Assembly: GCF_009791395.1 (NCBI RefSeq)
Contig: NZ_WSZK01000017.1
Location: forward strand, 1-64,000
Reading direction: 5' to 3'
DNA length: 64,000 nucleotides
Source: Halomarina oriensis
GTDB taxonomy: Archaea; Halobacteriota; Halobacteria; Halobacteriales; Haloarculaceae
A program made the translations under genes and the position numbers. Position 1 is the stretch's first letter; every line of letters begins with the position of its first letter. Shown here piece by piece: positions 12,280 through 31,831 of the stretch. Under the pieces are notes generated by a model, which was given only the letters and a program-made list of their open reading frames with translations, was not told the DNA's origin and made no database searches.

Positions 12280-12915
12280 ATGGCCGCTTACGGTCGGCCG
12301 ACCCTGCGTGACCTGTTCGACGAGTCCCCCACGCCGCACATCGCGCACCCCCCGCGCACCCATCACCGAGACTACTACGTCGCTACCGATGGGTCCTTCC
12401 GGGAGGCCAGCGGCGGACTCGGCGTCGTCATCGAGACCCGCGACGGTGAGACCGTCGCGCGACGCTCCGTGACCGACGCCGTCCCCGACAACAACGTCGC
12501 CGAGTACCGGGCGCTCCACCTCGGACTCGACCTGCTGGCGACGCGCGCACCCCGTGACGCGAGCGTGGGTATCGTCCTGGACCACGACGACCTCGCCGCC
12601 AACGTCAACCGGGCGGCGCTGGCCGCTCGACAACCCGCTCACGGCCCACCGCACCCCTATCGCGTGCCGGTGACCACCCAGTACCACTGGCGGGGTATCC
12701 GCGCCCGAATCGCGGGCTTCCGGGAGATTCGGGCCGCACGCATCGACAGCGGCGTCAACCCGGCGCACTGTCTCGCGAACGCCCCCGACCAGTACGCGTT
12801 CGTCAACGACGAACCCGCCCGCTGCGTCCTGCCGTCGCTGACCACCGAGTCGCCCGGCCCGCAGTACCCACCGCCGTCGCGGGCGAACCGCAACACCGGC
12901 AACGCCAGCGACTGA
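12280..12915 (+). CDS. RNase H-fold protein (RNase HI-like)
   Basis: 211 residues. The RNase H fold is visible: first strand with TDGSFREASGGLGVV (Asp37), helix with NNVAEYRALHLGLDLL (Glu75), and strand GIVLDHDDLAANV (Asp101). In active RNase HI the fourth acidic residue lies in an N-x-x-A-D-x-L-A motif; here it reads NPAHCLANAPDQ, with His where the Asp is expected. It could still be active with altered metal binding, or act as a nucleic-acid binding protein. The last 30 residues (from about 181) are Pro/Asn/Arg-rich and look disordered. Known role of active relatives: cutting RNA in RNA-DNA hybrids. Confidence 0.75.
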   Translation: MAAYGRPTLRDLFDESPTPHIAHPPRTHHRDYYVATDGSFREASGGLGVVIETRDGETVARRSVTDAVPDNNVAEYRALHLGLDLLATRAPRDASVGIVLDHDDLAANVNRAALAARQPAHGPPHPYRVPVTTQYHWRGIRARIAGFREIRAARIDSGVNPAHCLANAPDQYAFVNDEPARCVLPSLTTESPGPQYPPPSRANRNTGNASD

Positions 12916-13101
12916 ACGCGTACTTCTCGGCTCTTTCATCACACTCTCGCAGAGGCGACGCTAGACGTTGCGATTGGCACGTTCGGTGTACGAACGTAAT
13001 CGAGGCAGATCAGCTACTGTGCGGATTGTCGGCAACGATAGACAGAGAGCGTGAGTCTATCGAGTCGAGAATAGTGAGTTGCGGAGTCGTAGCCGCTCCG
13101 T
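12916..13101. other. Intergenic start of the low-G+C island
   Basis: No gene seen. Composition drops markedly compared with the flanking genes. A perfect 7-base hairpin, ACGTTCG and CGAACGT around GTGTA, lies at 12979-12997; it may end transcripts from either side since the flanking genes are convergent. Confidence 0.4.
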
Positions 13102-14112
13102 TTAGTCGTCGTTACTCTTGATCTGGAACTCGGTGTCAGGAGTCACAAGGACTGCACCGGCAGGATTCGTTTCTACGATACTGAATACTTTGTCACGTGG
13201 ACTCAACCGGCTTTCCTTATCCGAGATCGTGAGGAGGAACCCCTCAACGAGCGTTCGGCCCCGCAGTTGCTGCTTCACGACTGCTTGGGGATCTGCGTCG
13301 AACTGAACCGGCGTCTCCTCCGACGGGCTAACCGTGATAGTCTGCGCTTCGCGGGCACCCGCGTGGCGGATTCGGATGTAGTCCTCAACGTCGACACCCG
13401 CTTTCTCGCGGAGGGTGCCGTTGAGGTGGATCGTCTCTGGGTTCCAGTGTTTCCGGTCGGAGCGATAGAGTCGTGCAAACACACTGTCGGCTCCCGTAAT
13501 CTCGACGAAGTCACCTGGCTCTGCGTCAAGTTGGTCGAATACGTCCGGCGAAATCCGAGCGATTGGTCGTCCCTCGTCATTCGGATTTCCCTTCTCGACG
13601 CGCAATCGGAGTGGCTCGGGGATTCTCGTTGGTGGTGATTTCACCGAAGGAGTCTCATGTGGCTCACGGTCGGGTTGGCCCTCGATACGGATGTCGAGGT
13701 CGTAGTCGTGTAGACCACCGCCAGACATGATGTCGCTCAGATGCATCTCGAACTCGGTGAGTACCTGGCTGGATTCGTCTTCAGCCGCACTGAGGTCTGT
13801 GTTGGGAACGACAATGGTCGTTCGATACTCATCGACCTGAACGACAACTACCTGCGTGAACGGTGCTCCCCGGTAGAGTACGCGAATCATGTTCAACGAG
13901 AACGTGGAGTCGGGAAACACGGAAGTCCACGACGACCGGTCAAGTTTCTCGTTTTCCATCTCTGTCGGATAGAGCATCGCGATGGAGTAGTCCCGGTTGG
14001 TCGTGAGCACCCACGTCTCGGGAATGTCGAAAAACTCCCAGTCAGCGGGACTGCTTTGCATAATTACCTCGCGGTGCTCGTCGGGAGGGTCGGTGATTGG
14101 TCGGACAGGCAT
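13102..14112 (-). CDS. Stand-alone Cdc48/VAT N-domain protein without an ATPase domain
   Basis: 336 residues, ATG at 14112. Residues about 166-336 match the N-terminal substrate-recruitment domain of Cdc48/VAT: GRPIARISPDVFDQLDAEPG, DFVEITGADSVFARLY and NGTLREKAGVDVEDYIRIRH form the double-psi barrel, and QQLRGRTLVEGF plus NPAGAVLVTPDTEFQI the second subdomain. A full Cdc48 is over 700 residues with two AAA+ domains; here the protein ends after the N-domain and no Walker motif exists. Residues 1-160 are a separate unknown domain (WEFFDIPETWVLTTNRDY, VLYRGAPFTQVVVVQVDE). Base composition is far below its neighbours, suggesting acquisition from elsewhere. Function unknown; a substrate adaptor, Cdc48 decoy or defence-related role are all guesses. 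Confidence 0.8.
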   Translation of the reverse strand: MPVRPITDPPDEHREVIMQSSPADWEFFDIPETWVLTTNRDYSIAMLYPTEMENEKLDRSSWTSVFPDSTFSLNMIRVLYRGAPFTQVVVVQVDEYRTTIVVPNTDLSAAEDESSQVLTEFEMHLSDIMSGGGLHDYDLDIRIEGQPDREPHETPSVKSPPTRIPEPLRLRVEKGNPNDEGRPIARISPDVFDQLDAEPGDFVEITGADSVFARLYRSDRKHWNPETIHLNGTLREKAGVDVEDYIRIRHAGAREAQTITVSPSEETPVQFDADPQAVVKQQLRGRTLVEGFLLTISDKESRLSPRDKVFSIVETNPAGAVLVTPDTEFQIKSNDD

Positions 14113-14309
14113 ACCTGGCTATCAGTTCGCATAATCTTGAAAACTCGCCTACGTGTTCGGCAGAACCCGCTGCCTCACCTCAAAACCAGTCAGCACTGAA
14201 ACCGTCACACACGTGGCACATGGCTAACAGCTGAAGCACGGAGTAGTTACTCGGAACAAAACCGTCGCAAGTTCGGGGGACTCTCGCTCTTCTGTCTGGG
14301 TCACGCGCG
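14113..14309. other. Intergenic stretch with element-like repeats
   Basis: No complete gene. Two related pieces, GAAACCGTCACACACG near 14199 and AAAACCGTCGCAAG near 14263, flank AACAGCTGAAGCACGGAGTA. On the minus strand one frame reads CDGFVPSNYSVLQLLAMCHV then CDGFSADWF and a stop, which looks like a decayed end of an open frame. It may be a remnant of a transposable element at the edge of the island. Confidence 0.35.
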
Positions 14310-15266
14310 CTACCGCACCGTCGCGCCCTCGTTGCGTCCGCGGACGACCCTGACTGCCCCCTCGACGCCGGCCGCGTCGAGCGCCCGTTCACCGGCCTCG
14401 TGGGCGGCGTCGGCGTTCGCCCGGTCGGTGACGCCGTACACCGTCGGTCCCCACGAGGACTGCCCGACACCCGTGACCGACGGTTCGTCGCCGAGCGTGG
14501 CGACGAGTTCGCCGACTGGCGGGCGGTACACCCCGCCCTGTTCGTCGGCGTACCACGCGCCGTTGAGGCGACCGAACTCGCCGACGGCGTGGCCGAACCG
14601 CTCGCGGTCGCCCGCCGCCAGCGCCGGGAGCAACTGCCGAACCAGCAGCGCCGAGAGGTCGTCCGCGATGGCGGGGTCCGCGCGTTCGACGACGGCACGC
14701 ATGCTGTCGTCCTCGCTCGACCCGGACTTCCCCTCGCCTTCCGGGACGACCAGCAGGACCCGCCAGTCGTCGGGAACCGGGTGGCGACTCACGACAGGCG
14801 GGACCGTCCACTCACCGCGAGCGGGTGGTGTCGTGGTGAACCGCTCGGTGGGGTGGCCGGCGTCGACGACGGCACCGCCCGTCTCGAAGGTGGCGACGCC
14901 GACGCCCGAGCGCCCGCCACGGCCCAGTTCGGGGGCACGCTCGCGGATTCGTGGCTCGCGGTCGTAGGCGCGAGCGACCGCCCCTAGGGTGGCGAGTGCG
15001 TGCTGGGTGCCGCTCCCGAGGCCGACGTGTCGTGGGAGTCCCTCGACCAGTCGGACCCGAGCGCCCGGCACGCCGAGTGCCTCGCAGGCCGCTCGGGTCG
15101 CGTCGCGGAGCACCGGGTCGGCGTCGACTGCCTCGGCGCGGGTCGCCTCGACGACGACGTGCGGTTCGTCGAGCGCGAGGCCGACGCCGCCGTAGAGGCG
15201 CTCGTGGGCCAGCGAGAGGTTCGTGAACCCGACGTGGAGGCGTGCGCCAGTCTCGACCCGGACCAT
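14310..15266 (-). CDS. Beta-ribofuranosylaminobenzene 5-phosphate synthase (GHMP family)
   Basis: Beta-RFAP synthase condenses p-hydroxybenzoate or p-aminobenzoate with PRPP, releasing CO2 and PPi, the first step of the arene arm of methanopterin. The 318 residues start VRVETGARLHVGFTNLSLAH and contain a GHMP glycine-rich loop GLPRHVGLGSGTQHALATLG, RSGVGVATFETGGAVVDAGH, and a late motif VTGVGQSSWGPTVYGVTDRA, all characteristic. Haloarchaea carry this gene although they are not methanogens; a modified pterin cofactor is inferred. ATG at 15266. No partner genes are adjacent. Confidence 0.88.
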   Translation of the reverse strand: MVRVETGARLHVGFTNLSLAHERLYGGVGLALDEPHVVVEATRAEAVDADPVLRDATRAACEALGVPGARVRLVEGLPRHVGLGSGTQHALATLGAVARAYDREPRIRERAPELGRGGRSGVGVATFETGGAVVDAGHPTERFTTTPPARGEWTVPPVVSRHPVPDDWRVLLVVPEGEGKSGSSEDDSMRAVVERADPAIADDLSALLVRQLLPALAAGDRERFGHAVGEFGRLNGAWYADEQGGVYRPPVGELVATLGDEPSVTGVGQSSWGPTVYGVTDRANADAAHEAGERALDAAGVEGAVRVVRGRNEGATVR

Positions 15267-22012: not shown

Positions 22013-22363
22013 TCAGTCGCGCACCGCGACCAGCACCGCCAGCGCCGCGAGCAGCATCGCCGGGAACAGTGGCAGCGTCAGGTAGGCGTCGCGCCACGTC
22101 AGGCCCAGCGACCGCAAGAACGGGTCGGAGTACGGCACCAGCAGGATGGCCACCGGGACGACGACGAACGCGAGGAAGATGGCCGCGACCAGTCCCCAGC
22201 CGCTCGCGCCGAACTCCTCGGACTGTGGCACCTCCGGGTGGTAGGCGCGGGTCGTCCGTCGCCCGTCGTCCTCGTCGTCTCCCTCGTGAAACTCCGTTGG
22301 CTCGTGGACGTAGCCACCGCTGGAGCCGCCTCCAGCCCGGTCGCTCGTCGCGTCCTCAGCCAT
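22013..22363 (-). CDS. Two-helix membrane protein with acidic N-terminus
   Basis: 116 residues: about 50 hydrophilic, Gly/Asp/Glu-rich residues, then LVAAIFLAFVVVPVAILLVP (about 58-77) and LPLFPAMLLAALAVLVAVRD (about 97-116) as membrane helices. No family recognised. Its start overlaps the end of the upstream alcohol dehydrogenase gene by eight bases, so the two are probably one transcript. Confidence 0.65.
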   Translation of the reverse strand: MAEDATSDRAGGGSSGGYVHEPTEFHEGDDEDDGRRTTRAYHPEVPQSEEFGASGWGLVAAIFLAFVVVPVAILLVPYSDPFLRSLGLTWRDAYLTLPLFPAMLLAALAVLVAVRD

Positions 22364-23402
22364 CGTACTCGCTGTCCGGGACGACGACGACCTTCCCGAA
22401 CCCCTCGCGCTCCTGGAGCATCTCGTGGGCGCGCTGGGCCTCGCTCATCGGGAGGACCTCCCGGACGCGGGGTTCGAAGGTGCCGTCCCAGACGAGCGGG
22501 AGGACGTCGTCTATCTCGCCCGGCGTCGCCATCGTCGACCCGAGCAGTTCCAGCTGGTTCCAGAACAGGCGGTTGATGTTGGTCTCGGCTTTCGGGCCGG
22601 TCGTCGCCCCGCAGGTGACCAGGCGGCCGCCCTTGGCGAGACACTTCGTCGAGTCGTCCCACGTCGCCGGGCCGATGTGGTCGACGACGACGTCCACACC
22701 ACGGCCGTCGGTGTGTTCACGGACGAACTGTGCGAACGACTCCGTCTCGTAGTTGACGACGTGGTCCGCGCCACACTCCTTGGCGTACTCCAACTTCTCC
22801 TCGGTACTGGCGGTGGCGTACACCTCCGCGCCCGCGTGGTCGGCGATCTGGACGGCGGCGTGACCGACCCCACCCGACGCGCCGAGGACGAGGATGGACT
22901 CGCCCTGCGTGAGTTCGGCCTGGGTCATCAGCATCCGCCACGCCGTCTGGAAGACGAGCGAGGAACTCGCGGCCGTCACCCAGTCGACGTCCTCGGGGAC
23001 GGGCACGAGGTTCTCGGCGGGGACGGCGGCCTGCTCGGCGTGGACGCCCCTGACGTGCTCGCCGATGAGGTGATAGGAGTCGCACTCGGGTTCCCGACCG
23101 TCGCGGCAGGCCTCACACTCGCCGCAGTACTTGCCCGCGCAGACGGCGACGTGGTCGCCCTCCTCGAACCGGGTCACGTCGGCACCCACGTCGGTCACGA
23201 CGCCGGCCGCGTCGCTGCCGGGGATGTGTGGCATGTCGAGTTCGACGCCGGGCAGGCCGCGGCGCGTCCACACGTCGAGGTGGTTCAGCGCCCCGGCCTT
23301 GATGTCGACGAGTACCTCGTCGTCACCGGCCTCGGGGTCCGGGAACTCGTCGTACTCCAGCACACTCGTCTCGCCGTGCTCGCCGAACTGGACTGCTTGC
23401 AT
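22356..23402 (-). CDS. Zinc-type alcohol dehydrogenase / quinone oxidoreductase (MDR)
   Basis: 348 residues of the medium-chain dehydrogenase fold. The GroES part has ALNHLDVWTRRGLPGVELDM and the structural-zinc cluster CGECEACRDGREPEC near residue 95; the Rossmann part has ILVLGASGGVGHAAVQIADH. The usual catalytic-zinc Cys of alcohol dehydrogenases is replaced by Asn-His (LNHLD), so it may rely on one zinc or none and act like a quinone reductase with NADPH. Substrate unknown. I start at ATG 23402, not the longer upstream frame, because MDR proteins start at MQAVQF-like sequence. Confidence 0.85.
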   Translation of the reverse strand: MQAVQFGEHGETSVLEYDEFPDPEAGDDEVLVDIKAGALNHLDVWTRRGLPGVELDMPHIPGSDAAGVVTDVGADVTRFEEGDHVAVCAGKYCGECEACRDGREPECDSYHLIGEHVRGVHAEQAAVPAENLVPVPEDVDWVTAASSSLVFQTAWRMLMTQAELTQGESILVLGASGGVGHAAVQIADHAGAEVYATASTEEKLEYAKECGADHVVNYETESFAQFVREHTDGRGVDVVVDHIGPATWDDSTKCLAKGGRLVTCGATTGPKAETNINRLFWNQLELLGSTMATPGEIDDVLPLVWDGTFEPRVREVLPMSEAQRAHEMLQEREGFGKVVVVPDSEYDG

Positions 23403-23468
23403 GGTCGTGGCTCCGAGCGGACGGCGCAAAACCCTGCCGATGAGTGGCACGGCCTCCTCCGTCGGAGG

Positions 23469-23475
23469 TTTATAT
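23469..23475 (+). promoter_or_regulatory. Strong TATA element of the MogA/MoaB gene
   Basis: TTTATAT at 24-30 bases before the ATG at 23499 is one of the best TATA matches in the window, with the spacing of a leaderless transcript. Confidence 0.65.
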
Positions 23476-23498
23476 CACTACCCGCCGAACGACCTCCC

Positions 23499-24122
23499 AT
23501 GAGCGACGAGGCCGACGGGAACGACGGACGAAGAGAGGGCCGAGCGGACGGCGGGGACGACGACCACCACGCCGGTCACGAACACGGCGAGGCGGGCACG
23601 CACGACCACCACCACCACGACCTGAGCCACCTCTCGATGGCCGTCGTCACCGTCTCCTCGACCCGCGAGGAGACTGAGGACGCCGCCGGCGACGCCATCG
23701 AAGCCGAACTCCGCGCCGCCGACAACGAGGTGGCGACGCGCGTGGTCGTCCCCGACGACTTCGCGGCCGTCCAGGAGGCGGTCCGCGAAGCGGTCGCCGA
23801 CGAGTCGGTCGACGCCGTCGTCACGACCGGTGGGACCGGCGTCACCCCCGACGACGTCACCGTCGAGGCCGTCGAGGCGCTGTTCGAGAAACGACTCCCC
23901 GGCTTCGGCGAACTGTTCCGTGACTTCTCCAGAGAGGAGGTCGGGACGCGCGTCGTCGGCACGCGAGCGACGGCGGGTATCGTCGCCCGCGACCCCGACA
24001 CACCCGACGCCGGTGGCGTTCCGGTGTTCTCGCTGCCGGGGAGCGAGAACGCCGCCCGACTCGGCACGCGGGACGTCATCGTCCCCGAAGCACCGCATCT
24101 CGCGGGGTTGGCCCGTCGGTGA
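23499..24122 (+). CDS. MogA/MoaB-family molybdopterin protein with His-rich N-terminus
   Basis: 207 residues. Residues 48-207 match the MogA/MoaB fold that adenylylates molybdopterin before metal insertion: AVVTVSSTREETEDAAGDAI, the GGTG loop in VVTTGGTGVTPDDVTVEAVE (111-114), and PVFSLPGSENAARLGTRDVI. The first 47 residues are an extra acidic tail with ten His between 23 and 44 (HHAGHEHG and HDHHHHDLSH), not part of the usual fold, which could store or deliver metal such as molybdate-linked zinc or copper; this is inference. The stop overlaps the next start (GTGA). Confidence 0.85.
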   Translation: MSDEADGNDGRREGRADGGDDDHHAGHEHGEAGTHDHHHHDLSHLSMAVVTVSSTREETEDAAGDAIEAELRAADNEVATRVVVPDDFAAVQEAVREAVADESVDAVVTTGGTGVTPDDVTVEAVEALFEKRLPGFGELFRDFSREEVGTRVVGTRATAGIVARDPDTPDAGGVPVFSLPGSENAARLGTRDVIVPEAPHLAGLARR

Positions 24123-24934
24123 CGGTGCTGGTCGTCGGCGCGAGCGGCTACCTCGGCCGGTCGGTCGTCGACGCGTTCGCCGCTCGGGGCGTCGACAGCC
24201 TCGGGACCTACTACAGCAACCCCATCGAGGGGGCGACGCGCCGCTACGACTTCTTCGCCGACGACCCGGCCGACCTCCCGTTAGACGCCGTCGAGAGCGT
24301 CGTCTTCGCGGCACACGTCGAACGCACCGACCACGACTTCGAGACGTTCGCGGCGGCGGCCGAGCGGTTCGTCGCCGCCGTCCGGTCGGCCGGCCCGCGA
24401 CTCGTCTACACGTCCAGTGCGGGCGTCTTCGACGGGAGCGGCAGTCGATACGACGAGGCGACACCCGCGACACCGAAGTCGAAGTACGGTCGACGACTCC
24501 GACGGTTCGAGCGGTTCGTCGCCGCCCACGACGACTCGTCTGTCCTCCGGGCAGACTACCTGTTCGGTCGGTCGCGGGGGAGCCTCGACCGTCGACTCGC
24601 CCGGACGCGACGGCTGGTCCGGGAGGGTCGGCGGGTCCCGTACTACGCCGACATGTGGAAGAGTCCCTGCCACGTCCGCGAGGCGGGGCGTGCGCTGGCG
24701 GTGCTCGCCGGTTCTGACGTACAGGGGGTCGTCCACGCGCCGACGCCACGGACGAGCGCGTGGGCGTTCCACCGCGCCGGGATGGCCGCCCTCGGCGAGC
24801 GCCCGCGCCTCGTGGTTCCCGAACCGATGCCCGACGACCCGACGCTCCACCGCGACACCTCGCTCTCGTCGTCGCGGTTCGAGCGGGTCTGTGGCTTCCG
24901 GCCCCGGTCGGTGGTCAGGGCGCTACGGGGCTGA
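24119..24934 (+). CDS. NAD(P)-dependent sugar epimerase/reductase (RmlD-like SDR)
   Basis: 271 residues from GTG 24119, overlapping the previous stop by four bases. Extended SDR fold: VLVVGASGYLGRSVVDAFAA is the NAD(P) loop, VVFAAHVERTDHD the second strand region, and RLVYTSSAGVFDGSGSRYDE holds the catalytic Ser; Tyr-x3-Lys appears as the related KSKYGRR without a clean YxxxK, so catalysis may differ. It resembles dTDP-4-dehydrorhamnose reductases. Coupling to the MogA gene is not explained by any shared pathway. Confidence 0.75.
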   Translation: MTVLVVGASGYLGRSVVDAFAARGVDSLGTYYSNPIEGATRRYDFFADDPADLPLDAVESVVFAAHVERTDHDFETFAAAAERFVAAVRSAGPRLVYTSSAGVFDGSGSRYDEATPATPKSKYGRRLRRFERFVAAHDDSSVLRADYLFGRSRGSLDRRLARTRRLVREGRRVPYYADMWKSPCHVREAGRALAVLAGSDVQGVVHAPTPRTSAWAFHRAGMAALGERPRLVVPEPMPDDPTLHRDTSLSSSRFERVCGFRPRSVVRALRG

Positions 24935-25352
24935 CGGTCCGCCGGTACATCCGCCGTGCGCCGTGTTCGAGGAACGCGACGAAGACGACGAGCGGTGCGA
25001 GCAGCCACGAGTACAGCACGACGACGGCCGGTACCGCGTCGAACCCGGCGGGCGCACGCAGACCGACGGTCCACGCGAACCAGCCGAACGCGAGGACGGC
25101 GACGAGCAGCGGCGTGACCAGCCCCAGTCGTTCGTAGAACGCGACCGGTGCGCCGACGACGACGAACGACGTGGCCACAGTGACGACGGCTAGCCCACCC
25201 GTCGTGGCGAGCCAGTCGGTCGTCGGTTCGGGGACTGTCGGGACGGTCCAACCGCCGAACGTGAACCCCAGCAGGGCCGTGAACAGCAGGAACGCCAGCC
25301 AGACCGTGACGCCGTCGACCAGCGACTGCCGGAGCGAGCGTGGAGGGCGCAT
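24915..25352 (-). CDS. Four-helix membrane protein
   Basis: 145 residues with about four membrane helices: GVTVWLAFLLFTALLGFTFG, GGLAVVTVATSFVVVGAPVA, GLVTPLLVAVLAFGWFAWTV and VVVLYSWLLAPLVVFVAFLE. The C-terminus is basic (RRMYRRTV). No family recognised. It overlaps the end of the convergent epimerase gene by 20 bases. Confidence 0.65.
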   Translation of the reverse strand: MRPPRSLRQSLVDGVTVWLAFLLFTALLGFTFGGWTVPTVPEPTTDWLATTGGLAVVTVATSFVVVGAPVAFYERLGLVTPLLVAVLAFGWFAWTVGLRAPAGFDAVPAVVVLYSWLLAPLVVFVAFLEHGARRMYRRTVSPVAP

Positions 25353-25419
25353 AGCTGTCAGTCGGGCGGTCGGTCACAAAAACCTACGCACGGACCGTGG
25401 CGTGTCGACGCGTCTGCCC

Positions 25420-25734
25420 TCAGTTCGGGAGCGGACAGAGCGACGCGGTGAACACCGCTACGTCGTCGCTCTCGTTGCGCGCGCCGTGTGGTTCGCCCCG
25501 CTCGTGGAGGACGACGCCCGGTGCCTCGACGGTCTCCTCGCTGTCGCCCTGCACCACCACGACCTCACCCTGGAGGACGTGGAACACGTTCGTCGCGTCG
25601 TCGTGTTCGTGAGTCGAGAGCTCCGCGCCCGGCCCGAGCGCGAAGTACTTCACCAGCACGTCGTCGGTGACGACGAGTTCGCCGGACGTTCGCTCACCCT
25701 CCGCGGGCTCCTCGAAGTCGAATCGGTCGAGCAT
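25420..25734 (-). CDS. Small cupin-domain protein
   Basis: 104 residues, a single cupin barrel. Motif 1 is ALGPGAELSTHEHDDATNVF with the metal ligands His-x-His-x-Asp, followed by VLQGEVVVVQGDSEETVEAP, and motif 2 has HERGEPHGARNESD. It probably binds one metal ion; relatives are enzymes or sensors. Function cannot be told. ATG at 25734; the frame stays open upstream, but the cupin start fits this Met. Confidence 0.85.
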   Translation of the reverse strand: MLDRFDFEEPAEGERTSGELVVTDDVLVKYFALGPGAELSTHEHDDATNVFHVLQGEVVVVQGDSEETVEAPGVVLHERGEPHGARNESDDVAVFTASLCPLPN

Positions 25735-25760
25735 GGCCGGGAGTTGGGCGGCCGACGGCT

Positions 25761-26582
25761 TCAATCGTCGGCCGTCAGGACGGTGAGTTCGTAGTACTCC
25801 TCGAACGCGACGAAGTCGTAGTCGGTGACGAGCGCTTCGAGTTCGTCGCGGACGCGCCCGGAGCGGTCGAGCGTCATGCGTCCGGAACTGGTCGTCTCTC
25901 GCAGCACCTCGTGGGTCTCCGAAGCGAGTCGCGGAAACGCGACGTCGTGAACCGGTCCCGTAGCCGTGTCGGGGGCTTTGCGGGCCCACACCGTCGTGTG
26001 CGGCGGCGGGTCGCCGACCCACCCGGCCTCGAACTCGTAGACCGACCCCTCGTGGCGGACCGGCGGGAGACGGTTCGGCCAGTCGGCTCCCCACGGGGGT
26101 TCGACGTGCCCGCCGCTCTCGAACCGGCCGACGTCGAGGGCGTGGTCGAACGCCGCCCGTCCACCGGCGGAGAGGTCGGCGTACGCGACGACCGCTCGTC
26201 CGTCGTCGGGCGTCCACGAGCCGTCGTGTCGGACGAACTCGGCACCGTACTCGGCGTGGAGGGCCGTCTCGACGACCACCTCGTAGGTCGCGTCCCCGCG
26301 TTGGACGAGCGTCTCACCGACCGTCGTCTCGACGGGGTCGTCGACCGTCTCCCACTCGATGTCCGCGACTCCGCCGTCGAACGCGTCGACGAACGCCTCC
26401 CGAATCGCGGTCGGAACCACGGCGACACCGGCCGCGTCGGGGAACTCCTCGGGGGGTACACGGGTCGCACGGAGTTCGTCGGGAACCGGCGTCGACCCGG
26501 CGCTGTCGTCGCTCACACACCCGGCGAGCGCGCTCGCACCGAGCGCACCCACTCCGGCGAGCAGTCGTCGTCTGGAGGGCAT
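25761..26582 (-). CDS. Tat-exported lipoprotein of unknown function
   Basis: 273 residues. The signal PSRRRLLAGVGALGASALAG ends in the lipobox LAGC with Cys22, a twin-arginine lipoprotein signal common in haloarchaea. The mature part is acidic and alpha/beta mixed, with DYDFVAFEEYYELTVLTADD at the end. No family recognised. Its start and the start of the aldo/keto reductase are 92 bases apart, divergent. Confidence 0.75.
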   Translation of the reverse strand: MPSRRRLLAGVGALGASALAGCVSDDSAGSTPVPDELRATRVPPEEFPDAAGVAVVPTAIREAFVDAFDGGVADIEWETVDDPVETTVGETLVQRGDATYEVVVETALHAEYGAEFVRHDGSWTPDDGRAVVAYADLSAGGRAAFDHALDVGRFESGGHVEPPWGADWPNRLPPVRHEGSVYEFEAGWVGDPPPHTTVWARKAPDTATGPVHDVAFPRLASETHEVLRETTSSGRMTLDRSGRVRDELEALVTDYDFVAFEEYYELTVLTADD

Positions 26583-26605
26583 CGTCCGGACTGGTCGGCG
26601 AGACG

Positions 26606-26649
26606 GAATAAGCTTTCAGTCAATCGGGCGAGGGCGGCGGTAAGCTATA
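26606..26649. promoter_or_regulatory. Divergent promoter region
   Basis: On the minus strand GCTTATTCC at 26605-26613 lies 24-31 bases before the lipoprotein ATG (26582); on the plus strand GCTATAC at 26643-26649 lies 26-32 bases before the reductase ATG (26675). Both spacings fit leaderless transcripts. Confidence 0.5.
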
Positions 26650-26674
26650 CCCACGAGGCGACCCTACGCCGGGT

Positions 26675-27499
26675 ATGGACATGGAGTACGCCACGGTACA
26701 GGGCGTCGACGTCCCGAAACTCGGTCTCGGCACGTGGCGACTGACCGGCGACGACTGTCGCAACGCCGTCTCGACGGCCCTCGAACTCGGCTATCGGCAC
26801 GTCGATACCGCACAGGCGTACGGCAACGAGCGGCAGGTCGGGGCGGCCATCGCCGGCAGCGACGTCGACCGCGAGGACGTGTTCCTGACGACGAAACTCG
26901 AGGGCGGCAACCGAGACTACGACGGCGTGTTGCGCTCGACGGACGAGAGCCTCGCCAAACTCCGGACGGACCACCTCGACCTCCTGCTGATTCACTGGCC
27001 GAACCGCCGGGTTCCGACCCGCGAGACGCTCGACGCGATGACCGAACTCGTCGAGAGCGGGAAGGTCGAGCACATCGGCGTGAGCAACTTCGACCGGGAG
27101 AGACTCGACGACGCCCGCGAGGACGCCGACGTCCCCATCTTCACCGACCAGGTGCAGTTCCACCCCTACTGGGACCAGACGGACCTGCTCGACTACTGCG
27201 CCATCCACGACGTCTTGCTGACGGCGTACAGTCCGCTCGGTCACGGGGGCGTCCTCACCGACCCGGTGTTGAAGGAGGTCGGCGAGCGCCACGGGAAGTC
27301 GGCCGCACAGGTCGCGCTCCGGTGGGTGATCCAGCACGACGAGGTCGTGACCGTCCCCAAAGCGACCAGCCGTGACCACCTCGAGGCCAACCTCCAGCTG
27401 TTCGACTTCGAGTTGACCGCCGAGGAGATGGACCGCATCAGCCAGCCGTCGAAGCTCAAGACCCTGTCGGGCGTGCTCCGGTCGCGCTCGCCGCTGTGA
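26675..27499 (+). CDS. Aldo/keto reductase
   Basis: 274 residues, the usual size. The catalytic tetrad is visible: Asp and Tyr in YRHVDTAQAYGNERQVG, Lys in VFLTTKLEGGNRDYDGV, His in LDLLLIHWPNRRVPT. NADP-binding region near the end has VTVPKATSRDHLEANL. It reduces aldehydes or ketones with NADPH; related enzymes include 2,5-diketogluconate reductase-like proteins. Substrate unknown. Cytoplasmic, probably transcribed alone. Confidence 0.9.
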   Translation: MDMEYATVQGVDVPKLGLGTWRLTGDDCRNAVSTALELGYRHVDTAQAYGNERQVGAAIAGSDVDREDVFLTTKLEGGNRDYDGVLRSTDESLAKLRTDHLDLLLIHWPNRRVPTRETLDAMTELVESGKVEHIGVSNFDRERLDDAREDADVPIFTDQVQFHPYWDQTDLLDYCAIHDVLLTAYSPLGHGGVLTDPVLKEVGERHGKSAAQVALRWVIQHDEVVTVPKATSRDHLEANLQLFDFELTAEEMDRISQPSKLKTLSGVLRSRSPL

Positions 27500-27564
27500 C
27501 ACCGGGCGATTCCGACCCTCGGGAGTCGTCATAGCTTTTCACCCTCGGCGCGCTACGTGTAGCC

Positions 27565-28419
27565 ATGCCGACGCAACTACGACCTGGCTGCTGGCTCATC
27601 GAGTTGACCGGTGTCAACGCCTACCTCGTCGAGGACGTGGTGGGGGAGACGCCGAACGGCGAGACGACCGCCGCCCGGGAGGAGCCGATTTCGGTCGACC
27701 TCTCCGAGGACGGAGCGACCGAGGCGGCCGACGAGGACGACTCCGGGGACGACGGCGAGTCGAGCGTCGAGGCGGGCACCGACGAGGAGGTCACGGACGA
27801 CACCGAGGGCGACGTGCGCACCGTCCTCACGCTCGTCGACGCCGGGATGCCGTTCGACGCCGACGCCGTCCGGGAGGCCATCGAGGAGACCGGCCACACG
27901 CTCGCGGACGTCGAGCGAGTCCTCGTCACCCACTACGACGTCGACCACGTCGGCGGCCTCTCCCGACTCGACCTCCCGAACGCGACGGTCTACATGGGGT
28001 CGCCCGACGCCGAGTATCTCACCGGGCGGCGCAGTCCGCCGCTCGACGGCCACAAGACGGCGCTCCAGCGGCTCTCCAAACCGTTCGTCTCGACGGACCT
28101 CGACGTCGAAGTCGTCGGTGACGGCGACCGGGTGGGGAGTTTCACCGTCTACGAGACGCCCGGGCACACCGAGGGGCACGTCGCCTACGTCAGCAGCGAC
28201 CTCTCGGTGGCGTTCGTCGGTGACCTCGTCCGGGAGTCCGACGGCGAACTCACGCCCTCGCCGTGGGTCATCAGCCACGACACCGACGCCGTCGCCGAGT
28301 CCATCCACGACCTCGCGGACCGCGAACCGGCCGTCGAGGTGCTGGGGATGGGCCACGGCGTCCCGTTCCTGCGCGGCGGGGCCGTGCGACTCGCGCAGTT
28401 GGGTCAGAAGGTCGATTAG
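27565..28419 (+). CDS. Metallo-beta-lactamase fold hydrolase with acidic insert
   Basis: 284 residues. The metal motif is RVLVTHYDVDHVGGLSRLD (H-x-D-x-DH in place of HxHxDH), with later ligands in YETPGHTEGHVAYVSSD and a final His in GMGHGVPFLRG. Between strands 2 and 3 (about residues 30-85) sits a very acidic, Glu/Asp/Ser-rich insert of some 55 residues. Such MBL proteins are often hydroxyacylglutathione hydrolase or lactonase relatives; the substrate is unknown. Confidence 0.82.
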   Translation: MPTQLRPGCWLIELTGVNAYLVEDVVGETPNGETTAAREEPISVDLSEDGATEAADEDDSGDDGESSVEAGTDEEVTDDTEGDVRTVLTLVDAGMPFDADAVREAIEETGHTLADVERVLVTHYDVDHVGGLSRLDLPNATVYMGSPDAEYLTGRRSPPLDGHKTALQRLSKPFVSTDLDVEVVGDGDRVGSFTVYETPGHTEGHVAYVSSDLSVAFVGDLVRESDGELTPSPWVISHDTDAVAESIHDLADREPAVEVLGMGHGVPFLRGGAVRLAQLGQKVD

Positions 28420-28533
28420 GACGCTCGACGGTCCGGCGAGTGAAGCGCCCGGTCGAGTCCGGCCGGCCGGAGAAACCCGCAAGGACGTCGCTCGGCGGCG
28501 GTTTCTTGATGGGTGGGGGCGTAGCCGGGCGTG

Positions 28534-28866
28534 ATGACCGAGACCGACTCGCTGCCCGAGGGCTGGACGGAACGCGACCACGACCCGCAGGTCGTCGACA
28601 AGTACGACCCTCGCCAGCCGTCGCTGTACGAGTCCGACGACGGCCACTGCGTCCAGGTCGTCCCCGACGCCGGCAACCAGGCGACGGGCGGCGAGGACCA
28701 CTGGCGCGTCGACGCCATCGAGGGCGACCCGAAGGCTCCCGAACACACGCGGACGCTCGGCGTGCGCGAGGGCCGGAGCGCCGCGCTCGACTTCGCTCGG
28801 GAGGCGATGACCGAGTACGGCGAGACCGGGAGTTTCGACGCCGTCGACGAGGAGACGGCGCGGTAG
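28534..28866 (+). CDS. Small conserved haloarchaeal protein
   Basis: 110 residues from ATG 28534 (a GTG precedes it directly). Acidic; central part SDDGHCVQVVPDAGNQATGG then EDHWRVDAIEGDPKAPEHTR looks like a small beta sheet, and the end is helical (SAALDFAREAMTEYGETG). No family name recalled, no membrane segment. Convergent with the next gene with nine bases between stops. Confidence 0.65.
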   Translation: MTETDSLPEGWTERDHDPQVVDKYDPRQPSLYESDDGHCVQVVPDAGNQATGGEDHWRVDAIEGDPKAPEHTRTLGVREGRSAALDFAREAMTEYGETGSFDAVDEETAR

Positions 28867-28875
28867 GGCGGCGAC

Positions 28876-29205
28876 TCAGTGCTCGGCGGTCAGTTCCTCC
28901 GCGACCGTCTCGACGTCGAGCAGGTCGGGGTCGACGACCAGGCCCGCGCTGGCGCGGGCGAACTCGGGGATCGAATCGTGCGAGTAGACGACGACCCTGA
29001 AGCGGTCGTTGAGTTCGCGGGCGACCGGAATCGACGTGGCGAGGCCGACGTCGGTGACGACGAGGGCGTCGGTCTCCTCGATTCCGGCGTCGACGAGCGA
29101 GTCGCGGTCGGCGGTGCCGGTCGCGCGACTCACGGTCACACCGTGCTCTTCGAGGGCTTCGCCCAGTCCGTCGGGGTCGGAGCCGATGACGACAGCGTGG
29201 TCCAT
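28876..29205 (-). CDS. DUF7126-like small protein of the pyrG-guaA operon
   Basis: About 109 residues from ATG 29205; an in-frame GTG at 29214 overlaps the guaA stop and would add three residues. It reads MDHAVVIGSDPDGLGEALEE, then TDALVVTDVGLATSIPVARE, a Rossmann-like half resembling the TrkA-N fold. From memory it is a haloarchaeal family (DUF7126) that usually follows guaA. Function unknown; a regulatory nucleotide-binding role is a guess. Confidence 0.72.
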   Translation of the reverse strand: MDHAVVIGSDPDGLGEALEEHGVTVSRATGTADRDSLVDAGIEETDALVVTDVGLATSIPVARELNDRFRVVVYSHDSIPEFARASAGLVVDPDLLDVETVAEELTAEH

Positions 29206-29210
29206 GGTGT

Positions 29211-30127
29211 TCACTCGTACTCGATTGTCGCGGGGGGTTTATGTGTGACGTCGTAGACCACGCGGGCGACGTTCGGCAACTGCCCCGTGATACGACTCTG
29301 GATGCGCTGGAGCGTCTCCCAGTCGAGTTCCTGGGCACGGGCGGTCATCCCGTCGCGCGATTCGACGGAGCGCACCGAGACGACCCAGCCGTGGACGCGG
29401 TTGTCACCCTTGACGCCCGTCGCCTTCCCGACGACGGCGGCGAACGCCTGCCACGGGTCGTACTCCTCCAGTTCCTCTTCGACGACGTGACAGGACTCGC
29501 GGGCCACCTCGACCTTCTCCTCGGTCACCTCACCGACGATACGGACGGCGAGGCCCGGTCCCGGAAACGGCATCCGCTCGGCGACGAGGTCAGCGAGGCC
29601 GAGTTCGCGGGCCACCTCCCGGACCTCGTCCTTGTAGAGGTCCCGGACGGGTTCGACGAGGCCGTCGAAGTCGACGACGTCGGGGAGGCCGCCGACGTTG
29701 TGGTGGGACTTGATGTTCCCCTCGCTCTCGATGCGGTCGGGGTAGATGGTGCCCTGCACCAGGCACGAGGCCTCCACCTCGGTGGCGACCGTCTCGAACT
29801 CGCGGATGAACTGCTCGCCGATGACCTTGCGCTTCTCCTCGGGGTCGGTGACGCCCGAGAGCGCGTCGAGGAACCGACCCTGCGCCTCGACGACGCGCAG
29901 GCTCTCCATGTAGTCGAACGTCTCGCGTATCTGGTCGGTCTCGCCTTTGCGCATCAGGCCGGTGTCGACGTAGACGGGGGTGAGTCGGTCGCCGATGGCC
30001 TCGTAGGCTAGCGCCGCGGCGACCGAGGAGTCGACGCCGCCCGACAGCGCGATGAGCGCCCGGTCGTCGCCGACCTGCTCTCGAATCTCCTCGACGGCCT
30101 CGGTCACGAACGTGCTCGCGTCGACCA

Positions 30128-30128
<1 letters not shown>
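29211..30128 (-). CDS. guaAB: GMP synthase, ATP-pyrophosphatase subunit
   Basis: 305 residues, the stand-alone archaeal subunit that adenylylates XMP and aminates it to GMP; the glutaminase partner (GuaAA) is coded elsewhere. The PP-loop is [20 protein letters not shown] (SGGVDSS at about 30-36), and the C-terminal dimerisation domain includes [20 protein letters not shown] and [20 protein letters not shown]. It starts one base into the pyrG stop (TGATG overlap), so pyrG and guaAB are translationally coupled, a purine and pyrimidine nucleotide operon. Confidence 0.94.

Positions 30129-31831
<1,703 letters not shown>

Follow-up and report, generated by a model that had tools for sequence, protein, structure and literature searches.

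A predicted Cdc48/VAT N-domain without an ATPase, joined to a haloarchaeal domain of scattered distribution: a tentative mobile, defence-type docking protein

Cdc48/p97 ranks with the most thoroughly studied unfoldases, and the N-domain is usually regarded as a part of the machine. Ufd1, a eukaryotic Cdc48/p97 adaptor, has a Cdc48-N-like fold and lacks an ATPase. Haloferax Cdc48a associates with the SAMP1-bound nucleases RecJ3/4-aRNase J and affects DNA-damage survival (PMC10470531), and the SAMP-dependent turnover of TBP2 needs Cdc48c (PMC4895103). We found no descriptions of detached N-domain proteins in the literature searched, which lay mostly outside subscription journals. Here we analyse such a protein, encoded in a 64,000-nucleotide stretch of Halomarina oriensis DNA that we refer to as the window. 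The most likely reading, to which we assign a probability of roughly 40%, is that of a mobile, defence-type protein whose N-domain would serve as a motor-free ligand-docking module.

The gene occupies positions 13102–14112. This open reading frame is real, as the preliminary description held, but that description had overlooked that it lies on the minus strand, where it is read from 14112 to 13102. It starts with ATG and encodes 336 amino acids, with KSNDD at the C-terminus. The product consists of an N-terminal domain, here called X (residues 1 to about 147; 13672–14112), a Pro/Glu-rich linker of about residues 148–168 (PDREPHETPSVKSPPTRIPEP; 13609–13671) and a detached Cdc48 N-domain, all on the minus strand. 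The first half of the N-domain, the double-psi barrel, covers residues 169–251 (13360–13608) and the second half residues 270–332 (13117–13305).

To assign the C-terminal half, we relied on curated profiles and a known structure. In Pfam, the first half matched CDC48_N (PF02359; E 1.6e-17, 63.9 bits against a cut-off of 35.1) and the second CDC48_2 (PF02933; E 2.1e-7, 30.9 bits against 22.4), and no other family matched anywhere in the 336 residues at E≤1. Both subdomains are thus found above their curated cut-offs and in the order of a Cdc48 N-domain. Residues 169–331 were aligned by phmmer with residues 8–172 of VAT-N (PDB 1cz4; E 2.8e-8), and a profile of five detached N-domains, the window's included, matched positions 5–170 of the 176 in VAT-N with E 1e-23. 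AlphaFold2 models from an alignment of three sequences reached pLDDT values of 32.5 and 36.9 and gave no usable fold, and the fold assignment therefore rests on sequence profiles. These results indicate that residues 169–332 form what is by sequence a complete detached Cdc48/VAT N-domain, in agreement with the preliminary description, which had placed one at about residues 166–336.

We then looked for the missing ATPase. The protein contains neither a Walker A nor a Walker B motif, and Walker A is absent from all six frames of positions 12300–14400. The end of the protein is the end of the N-domain, so that the frame stops at the domain boundary, and no AAA+ frame is present in the 186 bases that separate its stop from the next gene. 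The NCBIfam model for CDC48, TIGR01243, scored 78 bits against a cut-off of 802.65, through its N-domain part only. The pair of Walker-bearing AAA+ modules that characterizes a Cdc48/VAT AAA+ ATPase is thus lacking. A frameshifted AAA+ module downstream was ruled out, as there is neither room for it nor a Walker A motif. The claim of an ATPase-free protein that ends at its N-domain was therefore upheld, also with regard to the downstream AAA+ frame that had been named as grounds for rejecting it.

The composition of the gene sets it apart from its surroundings. GC at the three codon positions is 0.63/0.41/0.665 and alike in both halves, which fits a coding gene that arrived in one piece. Third-position GC (0.665; 0.677 and 0.653 in the halves) contrasts with 0.87–0.93 in four nearby genes, and the gene is thus foreign by composition. 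A value for the aldehyde dehydrogenase gene was left out because it had been read out of frame. It lies in a variable gap of 1394 bases (12916–14309, no strand assigned) with GC below that of its flanks. On one side stands an RNase H-like gene (12280–12915, plus strand; sub-threshold RVT_3 match), which is also found beside the gap in two congeners, and on the other a GHMP-kinase family gene (14310–15266, minus strand) that is kept across the genus. In the same two congeners (G055 and G052) the gap measures about 415 and 346 bases and contains small, unrelated ORFs in place of our gene, which is wholly absent. The window locus shows no integrase or flanking repeat marking the insertion. Overall, we observed a lone, horizontally acquired two-domain gene, and the mobility proposed earlier is borne out by its foreign composition and its insertion between core genes. 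The gene list and the flanks read as core chromosome and probably not as a defence island, which counts against a docking role in defence.

A viral origin was rejected for want of relatives in IMG/VR or phage records, both of which were scanned by short peptide patterns and thus not exhaustively. The IMG/VR queries that gave no match were the whole protein, three subfamilies of X, a plasmid N-domain, and the Cdc48a N-domain with the start of D1.

A fusion confined to one genome may also be evolutionary debris, left when an X gene and a truncated Cdc48 paralogue happened to join, and under no selection for a function. The fusion is indeed a singleton, found in the window only and absent from the congeners searched. 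We nevertheless consider debris quite improbable, because the 336-codon frame is intact and ends exactly at the domain boundary, both halves have coding-type codon-position GC, no AAA+ remnant follows downstream, and other detached N-domains recur, as described below.

The N-terminal domain had been called unrecognised over residues 1–160. This holds for Pfam, PHROGs and the PDB, where residues 1–147 have no match, yet the domain belongs to a family. Used as a single-sequence query, residues 1–164 retrieved stand-alone haloarchaeal relatives at E 1.4e-34 and 2.3e-33, and the search for this domain in archaea, as proposed earlier, was thus productive. Across the 392 class-level genomes searched, stand-alone relatives are about 140–155 residues long, with E down to 1e-34, and the closest share 42–45% identity with the window's domain. 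We built a profile, A1, from 15 sequences with the window's among the seeds, and it matched the window's own domain, as a seed, with E 5.5e-45. It detected X in 9 of 125, 4 of 171 and 12 of 146 genomes of three families (roughly 2–8%), usually as one copy. A search of genome contigs with the whole window protein gave no match, and one with the close X subfamily gave two loci only. Judged from these profiles, X is a definable, scattered haloarchaeal family. Its members occur alone, with an N-terminal transmembrane segment (read from the sequence at loci L064 and L065), in a possible Mrr-like fusion, or with the Cdc48 N-domain. In the possible Mrr-like fusion (L107 and L108), X follows a putative PD-(D/E)XK domain with ...VDIYG...VQCK, for which Mrr_cat matched below its cut-off (E 1e-3 and 6e-3). 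As in the window, X is here one half of a two-domain protein, but it is the C-terminal half and its partner would be nuclease-like, whereas the window's partner is the N-domain. A membrane AAA+ protein at locus L119 was set aside as a further partner, since the region seems secretion- or conjugation-like.

Gene neighbourhoods of X were compared next, with gene calls in unannotated loci made by a simple composition score devised for this analysis. The clearest case is L064 (genome G273), where brxC (E 3.5e-176) is followed after 21 bases by a transmembrane X gene and then by pglX (E 4e-156), all on one strand, with further brxB-, brxA- and pglZ-like neighbours assigned by eye. This protein shares its domain with the window's (profile E 7.4e-41, the L064 sequence being a seed), but it has a transmembrane segment and sits inside a BREX operon, whereas the window's X is fused to an N-domain and stands alone. 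Elsewhere, transmembrane X is followed by hsdM and hsdS (L065), and X lies near an Eco57I-type restriction-modification (R-M) gene (L056), PLD-helicases (L057 and L110) or a PDC-S02 protein (L107). Several X genes adjoin tyrosine recombinases or integrases or sit on plasmids. Another branch occupies conserved chromosomal sites with SpoU-methylase and UPF0179 neighbours. Since X is partly found in such conserved places, the defence link rests on few clear loci.

The comparison with control genes is suggestive only. At least 7 of 113 X neighbours had a PADLOC match against about 5 of 120 controls, which is not clearly above and speaks against the docking reading in defence. The PADLOC models matched numbered 82 among the 113 X neighbours and 13 among the 120 control genes. 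As the models are redundant and the gene counts close, we claim no significance for defence enrichment. The window protein itself matched no PADLOC model. Thus, the defence link raised in the preliminary description is suggested by X relatives in BREX and R-M loci but is not established.

Two further observations concern these neighbourhoods. Related small proteins lie near X in BREX (L064 3866–4405), type I R-M (L065 9133–9663 and 16360–16908) and PLD-helicase (L057 11004–11279) loci. They resemble two X-neighbour genes that match Pfam TBP, and they are possibly defence-linked TBP homologues. Separately, at L063 (G300) and L066 (G328) X lies near alcohol dehydrogenase-like and CTP synthase-like core genes; the same core genes occur in the window at 22356–31771, 8–18 kb from the fusion gene, which may be coincidence.

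The preliminary description was right about a stand-alone N-domain and had overlooked that others exist. Complete listings for 44 related genomes gave about 150 N-domain places, nearly all in frames of more than 600 residues. Besides the window genome, 2 of the 44 carry N-domain genes free of AAA. The first (G056) encodes a 438-residue protein with two complete tandem N-domains, which adjoins a resolvase-like gene (L054 4707–6023), and a 201-residue protein with a weaker, sub-threshold Pfam match. The second (G141; L183 5241–6008) encodes a 255-residue N-HNH protein whose HNH match is above the cut-off (E 1.2e-6). Like the window protein, it would have an N-domain without AAA+, but its partner is HNH on the C-terminal side, whereas X lies on the N-terminal side. 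Frames of 423 residues near a contig end (G135) and 362 residues at a contig start (G512) were discarded as probably cut genes. Three plasmid-borne N-only proteins were also found, in Haladaptatus halobius (WP_227380495.1), Halobacterium salinarum (WP_338756434.1; adjoining a recombinase) and Halorientalis (WP_077208389.1; near plasmid replication genes). On plasmid pHOS100, an N-only protein (L185 5965–6501) overlaps the end of a family B DNA polymerase gene. Putative N-domains without AAA thus recur in archaea as double-N, N-only and N-HNH proteins. In a tree with long branches, the window's domain grouped with the Haladaptatus and double-N domains (94/87), near Cdc48a, and the others fell elsewhere, so that detached N-domains occupy at least two places.

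Such settings, whether a plasmid with adjacent replication or recombinase genes or a chromosomal region with a resolvase-like neighbour, would suit a decoy or dominant inhibitor of Cdc48, as would a lone N-domain (174–201 residues) with no other evident activity. A free N-domain would compete for clients or adaptors and blunt host proteolysis to the benefit of the mobile element. Three further N-domain genes in the host genome, with open frames of 759–825 residues, are of ordinary Cdc48 size. We regard this explanation as doubtful: the window's domain is 37–40% identical to Cdc48a, where a mimic might be expected to be closer, neither X nor HNH would be needed, and the non-exhaustive scans of IMG/VR and phage collections gave no match.

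Sequence divergence and the two or more places in the tree could also mean that the double-psi barrel has lost its Cdc48 role and has been repurposed to bind DNA or protein on behalf of X, possibly in a toxin-antitoxin-like or regulatory unit; the N-HNH protein is a plausible DNA-directed example. However, DNA binding would require the barrel only, and both subdomains are kept in the same order in the window, tandem, Haladaptatus and H. salinarum proteins, which makes repurposing unlikely here. There is room for a repurposed barrel in G141, G056:C2 and Halorientalis, where the match to the second subdomain is weak or missing.

The docking reading of the window protein draws on its intact N-domain halves, its foreign composition, the occurrence of X near defence genes and the recurrence of detached N-domains. 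The N-domain would bind Cdc48-N ligands, be they clients, adaptors or SAMP-tagged proteins, and thereby bring X, to which the defence or inter-element function would belong, to these targets. In the N-HNH protein, a nuclease may be positioned in the same manner. Against docking stand the singleton status of the fusion and the finding that the domain retains only 51 of the 136 positions at which the five haloarchaeal Cdc48a sequences compared are invariant, so that the ligand surface may have changed.

Other routes to Cdc48 or the proteasome were considered. A pattern search of the protein found no canonical SHP or VIM motif, although divergent archaeal motifs are possible, and a C-terminal HbYX motif, as used for proteasome docking, is likewise absent from the protein. 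This argues against a classical adaptor or a proteasome-docking role and not against a docking N-domain. Lacking these canonical motifs, the role as adaptor, decoy or inhibitor acting on the host Cdc48 that was first proposed gained no support. Instead of a role directed at Cdc48, the relatives point to the N-domain as one of several partners of X, or as a carrier of effectors as in N-HNH.

That haloarchaea possess a class of mobile, ATPase-free N-domain proteins for effector targeting (HNH nuclease, X and others), tying the SAMP/Cdc48 pathway of protein quality control to conflict with viruses or between genetic elements, seems rather doubtful to us. Detached N-domains would connect ubiquitin-like tagging in archaea, in a way open to testing, with conflicts involving viruses or plasmids. 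A second lead is the X family, an uncharacterised domain that in one case lies inside a BREX operon.

With the N-domain of archaeal Cdc48/VAT (1cz4), the window protein appears to share both subdomains and their order, with an alignment that spans the entire domain; unlike Cdc48/VAT, it has no D1/D2 ATPase and carries X on the N-terminal side. A parallel may be drawn with Ufd1, in which a Cdc48-N-like fold likewise stands in an ATPase-free protein. However, the window protein lacks an SHP motif and any Pfam match to the Ufd1 family (at E≤1), and its sequence is nearest to haloarchaeal Cdc48a. Recurrent motor-free N-domains, some of them fused to effectors, would be a prokaryotic counterpart of Ufd1-like adaptor evolution.
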